Assembly: GCF_007164525.1 (NCBI RefSeq) | Contig: NZ_AP019791.1 | Span: 2,343,501 to 2,407,500 of the forward strand | Origin: Rubrobacter xylanophilus | GTDB taxonomy: Bacteria; Actinomycetota; Rubrobacteria; Rubrobacterales; Rubrobacteraceae | Length of the DNA: 64,000 nt | Direction of reading: 5' to 3' | In this document: positions 18,040 to 32,519 of the stretch, in pieces | Position numbering within the stretch: position 1 is the first letter of the stretch | Layout: each line of letters starts with the position of its first letter | Program-made: the position numbers and the translations under genes | The notes under the pieces: model-generated | Told to the model about the DNA's origin: nothing | The model's database searches: none | What the model saw: the letters and a program-made list of their open reading frames with translations, nothing else

Positions 18040-18091
18040 CGCCACCCCCCGAAGACCGGGCTATTGTGCTAGGCTTATCTTGCCCGCAGAG

Positions 18092-18255
18092 GGCCGCGGG
18101 AGAGAGCCGTCGCAGGCGGCCGCCGAAGGTGAAAGGTTCCGGTGGGGAGCCGAATCTCTCAGGCAAAAGGACCGCGGCCGGAGGGCGTCCTGGAGAGTCC
18201 GGCCGTGGGCCGGCGCCGACGGGGTAACACTCTCAGGTTCCGGGACAGGACGACA
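18092..18255 (+). ncRNA. glycine riboswitch, tandem aptamers (gcvT element)
   Basis: The leader of the gcv operon contains two glycine aptamer signatures. Aptamer 1 (about 18095-18178) has GGGAGAGAGCCG, GCCGAAGGTGAAA and the hallmark AATCTCTCAGGCAAAAGGAC. Aptamer 2 (about 18187-18252) has CTGGAGAGTCCG, GCCGACGGGG and CTCTCAGG followed by GGGACAGGACG. In this family glycine binding usually switches on glycine cleavage genes. About 45 bases remain between aptamer 2 and the gcvPA start, enough for an expression platform that could act on the GAGGGGG ribosome site. Confidence 0.93.
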
Positions 18256-22103: not shown

Positions 22104-22484
22104 TTGCCCGAGATACCTCAGGATCTCCAGTACACCCGGACCCACGAATGGGTCCGCATCGAAGACGGAACCGCCACCGTCGGTATAACCGACCACGCCC
22201 AGGAAGAACTCGGCGACGTGGTCTTCGTCGAACTGCCCGAACCGGGCAGCTCCGTGGAGGCCGGAGAACCCTTCGGCACCATAGAGTCGGTGAAGGCCGT
22301 CTCCGACCTCTACTCCCCCGTCAGCGGCGAGGTCGCGGAGGTGAACAGAACCCTCGAAGAGAGCCCGGAGAGGGTCAACGAAGATCCCTACGGCGAAGGC
22401 TGGCTCATCCGCGTCCGGATCTCCGGCCAGCCCGACCTCCTCTCCCCCGAAGAGTACGCCAGCCGCCTCGAAGAAGAGGAGTAG
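22104..22484 (+). CDS. gcvH: glycine cleavage system H-protein
   Basis: 126 residues, normal for GcvH. The lipoylated lysine is in FGTIESVKAVSDLYSPVSGEV, and the N-terminal LQYTRTHEWVRIEDG is standard. It carries the aminomethyl intermediate between the P and T proteins. TTG at 22104 follows GGGAGGA by a few bases. It is the last gene of the operon, with a strong palindrome 10 bases after the stop. Confidence 0.96.
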   Translation: MPEIPQDLQYTRTHEWVRIEDGTATVGITDHAQEELGDVVFVELPEPGSSVEAGEPFGTIESVKAVSDLYSPVSGEVAEVNRTLEESPERVNEDPYGEGWLIRVRISGQPDLLSPEEYASRLEEEE

Positions 22485-22526: not shown

Positions 22527-22608
22527 TTCTCAGGACCCCATATGTGCCGGCCATATATACTGCCAGCAGCTATCTGCAGAATTTTTCTGAATTTTCTGTT
22601 CCGAGGCC

Positions 22609-22637
22609 TTTACAAAGTGTGACGAGCGCGATATCAT
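22609..22637 (+). promoter_or_regulatory. promoter of the candidate small RNA
   Basis: TTTACA (22609-22614) and TATCAT (22632-22637) are separated by exactly 17 bases, close to the sigma-70 consensus. About 20 bases upstream is an AT-rich tract (around 22580-22599, ATTTTTCTGAATTTTCTG) like an UP element. No protein gene starts downstream on this strand before the terminator at 22847. Confidence 0.6.
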
Positions 22638-22686
22638 ACTGGCGTCGGTTGGTGCGAAACCAAAACCGACACACAATTAAAGAGTT

Positions 22687-22743
22687 CGGGGCGCGACTCC
22701 TCCTTTCCCTTTCCCCACCTATCACCCCTAAACAGCGCCCCGG
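22687..22743 (+). repeat. 57-bp direct repeat, unit 1
   Basis: Identical to 22758-22814, with a period of 71 bases. The unit has inverted ends CGGGGCGC and GCGCCCCG, so each copy folds into its own 8-bp stem. The 14-base spacer between units (22744-22757) is unrelated to the repeat body. Confidence 0.95.
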
Positions 22744-22757
22744 GCTCTTCCCCGGTA

Positions 22758-22814
22758 CGGGGCGCGACTCCTCCTTTCCCTTTCCCCACCTATCACCCCT
22801 AAACAGCGCCCCGG
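22758..22814 (+). repeat. 57-bp direct repeat, unit 2
   Basis: Exact second copy of the unit at 22687-22743. The first base that differs from copy 1 is at 22815. Exact identity of a non-coding stretch implies recent duplication or selection on both loops. Confidence 0.95.
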
Positions 22815-22846
22815 CCGGGACCTTTTCTTTTTCCGGGAAGATCGGG

Positions 22847-22889
22847 ACAAAAGCGGCTGCGCTCCTGACTGGAACGCAGCCGCTTTTGT
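22847..22889. terminator. bidirectional intrinsic terminator
   Basis: Arms of 15 bases (ACAAAAGCGGCTGCG at 22847-22861 and its exact complement at 22875-22889) surround a 13-base loop. The A-run of the left arm and T-run of the right arm make it work in both directions: for the small RNA on the plus strand and for rex on the minus strand, whose stop codon is 16 bases away. Confidence 0.85.
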
Positions 22890-22904
22890 TGGGGGTCTTT
22901 CTTT

Positions 22905-23555
22905 TCAGGTCGCGGGGGCGGCTTCTTCGGTTTCGGCCTGGGTGAGGTAGTAGAGGGTGTGCATCAGTTGGGCGGTCGGGTCTATACGATGAACGGTGAC
23001 GCCGGGTGGGACGTGAAGGAGCACGTCGGTGTAGTTGAGGATCACGCGGATATTCGCCTCGACCATGAGGTCGGCGACCTGCTGGGCGGCGGAGGCCGGG
23101 GTGGCGATTATCCCGATCACCTCGTCCGCTTCGGCGACGCTCTTCTTGAGCTCGTCTATGTGCTTGACGACTACGTTGCCGACGGTGCGGCCGATCTTCT
23201 GGGGGTCGTTGTCGAAGACGTCGTGGATGACGAAGCCGCGCTTGGGGAGGATGGTGCTGGAGGCTATGGCGCTCCCCAGGTTGCCCGCTCCCACGAGGGC
23301 GATGTTGTAGGTCTGGCGCAGCCCGAGGATGCCGCGCACCGCCTCGACCAGATCGTAGGCCTGATAACCAACCCCCCGCGTGCCGGAGAAGCCTATGGCG
23401 TTCAGATCCCGCCGCACCTGTACCGGGTTTATCCCCGTGAAGTCCCCAAGCTCCTTGCTGGAGACCGCATCCCTGCCCTCCTCGATGAGCTGCTGGGTAA
23501 CCCTGAGATACTTGGTGAGCCGGTTGGTCAGACCCGGTTGTAGCGTGGTTCGCAC
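22905..23555 (-). CDS. rex: redox-sensing transcriptional repressor Rex
   Basis: 216 residues, standard for Rex. A winged helix N-terminus (TNRLTKYLRVTQQLIEEGRDAVSSKELGDF, then INPVQVRRDLNAIG) precedes a Rossmann domain with ALVGAGNLGSAIA, the NADH-binding site. A C-terminal domain-swap helix (AQLMHTLYYLTQAE) completes it. Rex senses the NADH/NAD ratio and represses respiratory and fermentative genes. GTG start at 23555 follows AAGGAG by eight bases. No clear Rex operator (TTGTGA-N6-TCACAA) was found at its promoter. Confidence 0.95.
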   Translation of the reverse strand: MRTTLQPGLTNRLTKYLRVTQQLIEEGRDAVSSKELGDFTGINPVQVRRDLNAIGFSGTRGVGYQAYDLVEAVRGILGLRQTYNIALVGAGNLGSAIASSTILPKRGFVIHDVFDNDPQKIGRTVGNVVVKHIDELKKSVAEADEVIGIIATPASAAQQVADLMVEANIRVILNYTDVLLHVPPGVTVHRIDPTAQLMHTLYYLTQAETEEAAPAT

Positions 23556-23600
23556 CTTGTACGCTCCTTCTGGTCACAGGTCGCTCTCTGCGGTGAGAGC

Positions 23601-23628
23601 ATTGTAACAAAATGGATCGCTCTTGCAA
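23601..23628 (-). promoter_or_regulatory. rex promoter
   Basis: Read on the minus strand, TTGCAA (23628-23623) and TACAAT (23606-23601) are 16 bases apart, about 45 bases before the rex start codon. This is a near-consensus sigma-70 promoter. Confidence 0.65.
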
Positions 23629-31338: not shown

Positions 31339-31385
31339 CTTCGCTTTGTTATGTGCAAAAAGCATATACAGAAGGGAGGTGATAG

Positions 31386-32519
31386 ATGACGTTTTCGGCG
31401 GTAGTGAGGGGCTTTGAGGCTGCCGGGCTGCGGGCGTTCGGCGGGGCGCTGGAGCGGCTGCGGTACGGGTGGTGGCCGGTGGTACAGTCGGCGGTGGCGG
31501 CGAGCCTTGCGTGGTATCTGGCGGAGGTTCTTCTGGGGCACGAGCGGCCGTTCGTTGCGGCGATCGCGGCGGTGATCTCCGTCGGGGCCGTCGCCGGGCA
31601 GACGCTCCGGCGGGCTGCGGAGTGGATCCTGGGGGTTGCGCTGGGGCTTGCGGTCGCGGACCTCATCATGCTGGCCATCGGCACCGGGGTTCTCCAGACC
31701 GGGTTCATCGTGGGGCTGGCGATGGCGGTGGCGCTCATGATCCGGGGTGGGGTGATGCTGGTGACGGAGGCGGGCGTCTCCGCGTTGCTGGTGGCCAACC
31801 TAGACCCCACGACCTACGGCGTCTCCCCGGACAGGTTCGTCGAGGCGCTGGTGGGCGGGGGCACGGCGCTCGCGGTGAGCGCGCTCTTTCCGAGCGATCC
31901 CCGGGCCCGGGTCGAGCGGACCGCCGACCGCACCCTCGTCACGCTGGCGGCGGTACAGCGCGAGATCTCGGCGGCCCTCGACGGTGGAGACCTTGATCGC
32001 GCGGAGCGGGCGCTTCGGGAGGCCCGGGGCATAGATGCCCGGGTGGCGGAGCTGCGGGAGACGCTCGACGGCGGCTACGAGATCGCCCGTTACTCCCCGC
32101 CGCGCCGGAGAGTGCTGGGGCAGCTCTCCTACTACGCCACGGCCGCTGAGCAGCTCGACCTCGCGGTGCGCAACACCCGCGTCCTGGCCCGCGCGGCGGT
32201 GAGCATGGTGCAGGAGCGGGGGGCCGCGCCGCCCGCTGTGTGCTCGGCCATAGAGGATCTCGCCCGGGCGGTCGAGGCGCTCGACGCCTACCTGGACAGG
32301 CCCGAGCATCCGCTCGACACCCGCGCCTTCGCCCTGCAGGCCGCTTCCAAGGCCACCGCCGTGCTCCGGGAGCGCACCGATCTGGAGACCAGCGTGCTGG
32401 TCGGTCAGATCCGGTCGACCGCCCTTGATCTGCTGCAGGCCTCCGGCATGAGCTCCCCGGAGGCGCTCCGGGCGATGCGCGAGGCCTGCTCCGTTGCACC
32501 CTCCAGCGAGCGGTGCTAG
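31386..32519 (+). CDS. FUSC/aromatic acid exporter family membrane protein
   Basis: 377 residues. The N-terminal half has five or six closely packed helices starting at about residue 28 (WWPVVQSAVAASLAWYLAEVLLG), then a large cytoplasmic helical domain from about residue 175. This is the architecture of FUSC/DUF939-type efflux components related to AaeB. The exact substrate cannot be told. It starts after GGGAGGTGAT. It stands alone between a convergent pair and the MFS gene. Confidence 0.8.
   Translation: MTFSAVVRGFEAAGLRAFGGALERLRYGWWPVVQSAVAASLAWYLAEVLLGHERPFVAAIAAVISVGAVAGQTLRRAAEWILGVALGLAVADLIMLAIGTGVLQTGFIVGLAMAVALMIRGGVMLVTEAGVSALLVANLDPTTYGVSPDRFVEALVGGGTALAVSALFPSDPRARVERTADRTLVTLAAVQREISAALDGGDLDRAERALREARGIDARVAELRETLDGGYEIARYSPPRRRVLGQLSYYATAAEQLDLAVRNTRVLARAAVSMVQERGAAPPAVCSAIEDLARAVEALDAYLDRPEHPLDTRAFALQAASKATAVLRERTDLETSVLVGQIRSTALDLLQASGMSSPEALRAMREACSVAPSSERC

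Follow-up and report, generated by a model that had tools for sequence, protein, structure and literature searches.

What lies between gcvH and rex in the genome of Rubrobacter xylanophilus? Within the 64,000-nt stretch of contig NZ_AP019791.1 analyzed here (the window), gcvH (22104-22484, + strand) and rex (22905-23555, - strand) border a locus containing two C/U-rich stem-loops. The original prediction was of a self-contained non-coding RNA gene whose loops might block the translation of many messages at once. Taken in aggregate, the comparative data suggest that the first part of this proposal stands and the second does not. By these measures the locus is a conserved small RNA gene, which would be a type I member of a Rubrobacteraceae small RNA (sRNA) family. 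We consider it probable that the family comprises trans-acting sRNAs pairing with the leader of a formaldehyde/formate oxidation operon, and this is the best reading of the data. The working part would be the C/U-rich loop, long and kept open by its hairpin, and its partners would be purine-rich sites on other RNAs.

The first requirement is that the locus encode a conserved structured RNA. Of the first 36 family genomes searched at the DNA level, 28, including this one (G000), gave strong matches (E<=1e-28); no match as strong came from outside the family. Orthologues are present in ~30 Rubrobacteraceae, and 30 were used for alignment and structure tests. These mostly adjoin rex and are convergent with it; the other flank is gcvH in many loci and other genes elsewhere, some ssb-like by eye. 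RNAalifold independently recovered the same two helices (25 pairs), and 98.3% of paired positions are standard pairs, as compared to 35-47% in slid controls. Compensatory double changes are found at six pairs, with 24 double-change cells versus 5.0 in shuffles; stem 1 has double changes at 6 of its 15 pairs. While the stems vary, the 34 loop bases CUCCUCCUUUCCCUUUCCCCACCUAUCACCCCUA hold across the 30 species, the first 33 being invariant and the 34th nearly so, with invariant columns running from CTCC to CCCCT. As the loop is constant and the stems are not, the alignment is the signature of a structured RNA with the loop as its functional sequence. The original prediction had asked whether stems covary around a constant C-rich loop in other Rubrobacter genomes, and they do.

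An explanation without any trans regulator would treat the locus as an unusual terminator or attenuator, or as part of a protein gene. The hairpin does end in a U-tract, and an open reading frame (22544-22945) spans the locus. However, the RNA gene has its own conserved promoter, with the sigma-70-type pattern TTTACAA..TGT..C.AG...TA..AT kept in 28 orthologues; rex is convergent with the RNA gene, so that an attenuator would have nothing downstream to control; and the loop core recurs on unrelated stems. Gaps of 1-3 nt outside the loop among orthologues rule out coding, and conservation solely within a protein gene, a possibility raised with the original prediction, is not what is observed. 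An explanation of this kind is extremely improbable. The conserved promoter, covarying stems and indels incompatible with coding bear out the proposal of a self-contained non-coding gene, and the locus has the general attributes of a trans-acting sRNA: its own promoter and terminator, an intergenic position, no coding capacity and a conserved structure.

The next requirement is a partner for the loop. The exact loop complement, GGGGAAAGGGAAAGGAGG, is located near the 5' end of fdhA leaders in two genera, with near-exact versions in others. In G000, the locus aside, an exact 18-nt complement is found only at 2141058-2141075, ~105 nt before the fdhA start codon; simple scaling (reversed control: 9 matches at <=3 mismatches) anticipates ~0.0004 exact matches by chance. 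G001, from the same genus, likewise has an exact site in its fdhA leader, as do G012, G025, G035 and G029 of genus g12; the leaders of G006 (g6) and G009 (g9) have one with a single mismatch. Between -200 and -60, 5 of 30 fdhA leaders contain an exact site, 9 a site with <=3 mismatches and 16 a site with <=5. With the antisense strands of the sRNA copies masked, 0 of 213 other genes have a site within 5 mismatches. Across leaders, 95-140 nt separate the site from the fdhA start codon, and a promoter-like TTGNGC-17-TACKKT, recognized by eye, lies ~20-50 nt upstream of the site. Because leaders of different fdhA types can otherwise hardly be aligned, the site itself appears to be under selection. 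Predicted duplexes at sites with 0-1 mismatch have energies of -38 to -52 kcal/mol, as compared to a median of -11 and a minimum of -37 for random windows. An upstream open reading frame was considered as an explanation of the purine site and rejected, as by eye an ATG directly follows it in one leader only (L195).

FdhA gives an E of 7.6e-109 against TIGR02819, the model for glutathione-independent formaldehyde dehydrogenase, a score below the equivalog cutoff. Here fdhA is followed by a gene for an FdhF/YdeP-type oxidoreductase and then by fdhD, giving the operon fdhA-fdhF-fdhD. In genus g2, the fdhA leader lacks the site; instead, the leader of fdhD, the first gene of the formate dehydrogenase cluster, carries it with 0-1 mismatch. 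There the site forms the loop and 3' arm of a terminator-like hairpin followed by a U-run (GGGAACUCC-AGGGGAAAGGGAAA-GGAGGAGUUCCC-UUUUU), and this hairpin has its own promoter-like sequence. The fdhA/fdhD leaders thus supply the conserved complementary site expected of an sRNA target. The main conserved partner would be GGGGAAAGGGAAAGGAGG, which falls within the first 20-50 nt of the fdhA-fdhF-fdhD mRNA leader (fdhD first in g2) and to which the open loop could offer at least 18-20 nt for pairing. As a separate observation, fdhD in the g2 genome G002 is directly followed by a formate dehydrogenase alpha gene (L319:3540-4300), in which an in-frame UGA (NRAUHAAS) probably encodes selenocysteine; R. 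taiwanensis L321 may be similar.

As the pairing site is far from the start codon, control would most likely proceed via leader stability or early termination and not by covering the ribosome site. One possibility would be shielding of the 5' end from RNase J, for which RoxS-yflS offers a precedent (PMC5419742); this genome contains two RNase J-type genes. Other possibilities would be control of early termination, as at the g2 hairpin, or titration of the sRNA by the leader. A search of this genome detected no Hfq.

Titration could also be the whole function, with an abundant fdhA/fdhD leader acting as a sponge for the sRNAs and not as their regulated target. Both the distance of the site from the fdhA start codon and the g2 arrangement, in which the site is part of a short terminator-like hairpin served by a promoter-like sequence of its own, would suit this role, and a sponge RNA for RoxS, indicated in PMC8216469, serves as a precedent. 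Yet the site keeps to one operon despite changes in gene order, which regulation predicts and a sponge does not need. We regard this alternative as unlikely.

The loop could equally bind a protein, being C/U-rich. In the manner of CsrB, it might titrate a protein that binds single-stranded RNA, as its long single-stranded pyrimidine loop and the multiplied copies in some species would suggest. Such proteins tolerate base changes, however, whereas the loop bases are constant, and an exact complement in fdhA leaders is not predicted; a decoy role is therefore highly unlikely. Several further points weigh against the favored pairing with the fdhA/fdhD leaders. Because the fdhA leaders are in part related by ancestry, the 16 of 30 do not count as independent cases; an invariant loop cannot display covariation with its target; and since several RNA-bearing genomes, such as G005, G010 and G013, have no good fdhA/fdhD leader site, the RNA must have further partners. 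The gene architecture and its conservation, the covarying stems, the unchanging loop, the paralogues and the conserved complementary site come directly from computation; from these we infer transcription, the pairing itself and the physiological role.

Could the loop instead act on ribosome-binding sites at large? As a general anti-Shine-Dalgarno RNA, the loops would cover the ribosome-binding sites of many messages (those with GGGAAAGGAGG) and block their translation. The loop contains CCUCCUUUC, and several of its complements with 2-3 mismatches are Shine-Dalgarno sites of catabolic genes in this genome, named by eye as aldehyde dehydrogenase-like, permease, E1-alpha-like, formamidase-like and CoxS-like. 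In many relatives the E1-alpha-like site is rich in purines. Against this, the median loop/ribosome-binding site duplex energy across 225 predicted windows is -14.4, as compared to -14.7 to -16.2 for shuffled loops, a weak negative given crudely predicted start codons. Near-matches outside the locus number 14, including the exact fdhA site, versus 9 in the reversed control, and 34 invariant bases exceed what a purely anti-Shine-Dalgarno role needs. The originally predicted block of many messages through Shine-Dalgarno pairing is not supported by this comparison, and a general role of this type is quite unlikely. As a weaker candidate target, the E1-alpha-like dehydrogenase gene has an unusually purine-rich Shine-Dalgarno sequence (GGGGAAAGGAGG) in many species (L287-L301).

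The preferred reading, pairing of the loop with the fdhA/fdhD leader, bears on a second class of genes. A loop core of ~20 nt is also found on dispersed hairpins that have their own promoters and stems unrelated to those of type I. The commonest such stem, CCTGGTGYCC/GGGCACCAGG, defines type II. In a pattern scan, the 18-nt core (<=1 mismatch) is present in 35 of 39 family genomes, the reversed control giving one match in total. A stem of at least 7 pairs accompanies 93 of the 112 core instances; this figure includes a few occurrences of the complementary fdhD site, which are not RNA copies. G000 and G001 apparently carry type I only, duplicated. Across 84,980 species genomes, the exact 21-nt core occurs in 48 stretches, all from Rubrobacter/Rubrobacteraceae or from actinobacterial metagenome-assembled genomes matching the family. 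Within the phylum, matches with 2 mismatches occur at about the reversed-control rate, and a covariance-model search beyond the family gave one weak match (G246, 29.4 bits), taken as chance. A viral origin was rejected on 0 matches in IMG/VR. In all genomes searched, the RNA family appears specific to Rubrobacteraceae.

Upstream of type II copies there is often a TTGACA together with a palindromic box, CTATRTGCG..TARAATATAG, that overlaps the -10 element. This different, operator-bearing promoter would allow the same pairing loop to be expressed under other conditions. A common PadR-type palindrome, CTATRTGC-N5-GCAYATAG, is shared by the promoters of type II copies and by L322, L326, L329 and L341. 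The box has 29 sites in 18 of 39 family genomes and 0 for the reversed control. About 18 sites are at sRNAs; others precede genes that resemble, by weak family matches, those for phasins or lipid-droplet proteins, or lie between a phaB-like gene and a PhaQ-type PadR repressor (TIGR02719, E 1.2e-38, just under the cutoff). In B. megaterium, PhaQ acts as a repressor responsive to polyhydroxybutyrate (PHB) (PMC9049629). A PHB regulon comprising the sRNAs, the phasin-like genes and the phaB/PhaQ-type pair is possible. In the window, a similar palindrome (2 mismatches) at 31349-31369 precedes a membrane protein gene (31386-32519), and in G006 (L323) a box precedes an apparent homologue of that gene. 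Because this similar box precedes a different gene, the putative regulator is better named PadR-type than PhaQ. A more elaborate proposal would be a loop-to-loop switch, in which the pyrimidine loop invades a purine-loop, terminator-like hairpin at the operon 5' end and switches termination, while multi-copy versions, through an operator of PadR type (possibly of PhaQ and responsive to PHB), tie C1 oxidation to carbon storage. We offer this as tentative, and on balance doubtful.

Type I genes have a related upstream element. In about half of 28 orthologues, CTATGTGC-N5-GCAGATAT is matched at 13-14 of 16 positions, versus 2 of 300 random windows. In this genome the alignment places weak half-sites on the + strand at 22541-22577: TATGTGC (22541-22547) and GCAGCTATCTGC (22566-22577). 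Control of the RNA gene by Rex was rejected, as no Rex operator (TTGTGAN6TCACAA, <=3 mismatches) is found at the RNA gene. Upstream of rex itself, a weak Rex-like site at 23593-23610 is perhaps autoregulatory; the window has 9 such sites, with 4.7 expected by chance.

How is the gene constructed in R. xylanophilus? The promoter (22609-22637, + strand, as are the transcribed features below) consists of a -35 element TTTACA (22609-22614), a 17-bp spacer and a -10 element TATCAT (22632-22637). It matches the consensus at 10 of 12 positions, in agreement with the 17-base spacing first proposed; a promoter search of 1.3 kb gave 2 sites, versus 0.4 in shuffles. Transcription probably starts near 22644, at a conserved 5' hairpin that the original prediction had not included (GUCGGUUGGUGCGAAACCAAAACCGAC, 22644-22670; 10 pairs, 97.7% of cells paired across the 30 species). 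By folding, stem-loop 1 (22680-22749) has a 15-bp stem (22680-22694 with 22735-22749) and a 40-nt loop, within which the pyrimidine sequence CTCCTCCTTTCCCTTTCCCCACCTATCACCCCTAA (22697-22731) is the proposed pairing region, given its invariance and the fdhA-leader complement of its core. Stem-loop 2 (22751-22819) is a near-exact copy, identified by repeat search and folding, with a 14-pair stem and a 40-nt loop; its pyrimidine sequence (22768-22802) is identical to that of loop 1. The two exact 57-base modules described earlier, of period 71, are contained within 60-nt direct repeats (22684-22743 and 22755-22814) that are 59/60 identical at the same spacing. The stems said to close the modules, CGGGGCGC/GCGCCCCG, are present but longer than described, at 15 and 14 pairs. 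The folding energy of 22644-22896 is 7.3 standard deviations below dinucleotide shuffles, with 0 of 200 as low.

After stem-loop 2 is the U-tract CUUUUCUUUUU (22822-22832), the probable 3' end. Given this tract and the hairpin/U-tract ending of single-hairpin relatives, the predicted transcript probably ends near 22835, making ~190 nt likelier than the ~245 nt first suggested. The strong inverted repeat taken earlier as the terminator is present at 22847-22889 (19-bp arms, 95% complementary, on neither strand in particular), but the RNA probably ends before it; the repeat is probably a two-way terminator shared with rex. The exact tandem repeat, originally viewed as a distinguishing trait, is confined to G000 and G001, while in most species a single hairpin precedes the U-tract. 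Variants of their own are found in g2 and g11: G002, G014 and G011 have different second modules, and G002 and G014 hold two loop cores in one further loop. Extra loops therefore seem to have arisen more than once.

Among known RNAs, the closest parallels are in mode and not in sequence model. The alpha-r14 hairpins of Rhizobiales (NfeR1, SmelA075) present an identical ultraconserved loop motif, CCUCCUCCC, on diverging stems (PMC10746234, PMC3927594). The present RNAs likewise place an ultraconserved, anti-Shine-Dalgarno-like pyrimidine motif on divergent stems, the motif here being CUCCUCCUUUCCCUUUCCCC and not CCUCCUCCC. In contrast to the 9-base alpha-r14 motif, ~34 bases are constant here, on one or two such hairpins in unrelated organisms, and the proposed main target is in a leader away from the Shine-Dalgarno site. 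The Rfam ar14 model scores 13.7 bits (cutoff 58.8). CcsR1-4 of Rhodobacter sphaeroides are linked to the same pathways to which fdhA and, weakly, an E1-alpha gene point here; those RNAs derive from the ccaF1 3' UTR (untranslated region), whereas the genes here are free-standing, and the CcsR1 model gives 15.2 bits (cutoff 65.3), on the terminator only. Of the Shine-Dalgarno pairing characteristic of alpha-r14 and CcsR, individual matches are seen, with no genome-wide excess over shuffled loops.

RoxS/RsaE of Firmicutes, which has a role in NADH balance, pairs its C-rich regions with G-rich sites, including the extreme mRNA 5' end, where it shields from RNase J1 (PMC5419742). The pairing proposed here is similarly C-rich with G-rich and near an mRNA 5' end; in contrast to RoxS/RsaE, this promoter has no Rex-type operator, though rex adjoins. 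The RoxS/RsaE models are absent among Rfam matches at E<=10. Actinobacterial 6C/B11 RNAs likewise use C-rich hairpin loops, in B11 the terminator loop, to bind G tracts close to ribosome sites (PMC12395582). The two loops of 6C contain ~six C (PMC4046766), whereas here there are 40-nt mixed C/U loops, usually on one such hairpin. The 6C model gives no match at the gathering cutoff or at E<=10, in support of the originally proposed distinction. The RNA locus matches no Rfam family; in the window, the only element to pass is a tandem glycine riboswitch elsewhere (18087-18252, aptamers at 72 and 43 bits), before glycine cleavage genes. Rfam searches of the fdh leaders and type II loci returned nothing except one tRNA. 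Together, these comparisons suggest an RNA that resembles the C-rich-loop sRNAs (alpha-r14/NfeR1, CcsR, RoxS, 6C/B11) in mode and none by model match, and a new sRNA family with three distinguishing traits: a long loop that stays constant, scaffolds that are interchangeable and a target within a leader.

A literature search on Rubrobacter small RNAs found nothing relevant. The locus would thus represent an undescribed sRNA family in a deep actinobacterial lineage, with a specific candidate target. It would add another, independent example of C-rich-loop RNAs tied to one-carbon metabolism, to be compared with CcsR in Rhodobacter, and would suggest convergent use of C-rich loops. The presence of one constant loop on several unrelated stems would constitute a natural experiment, separating the pairing region from its scaffold.
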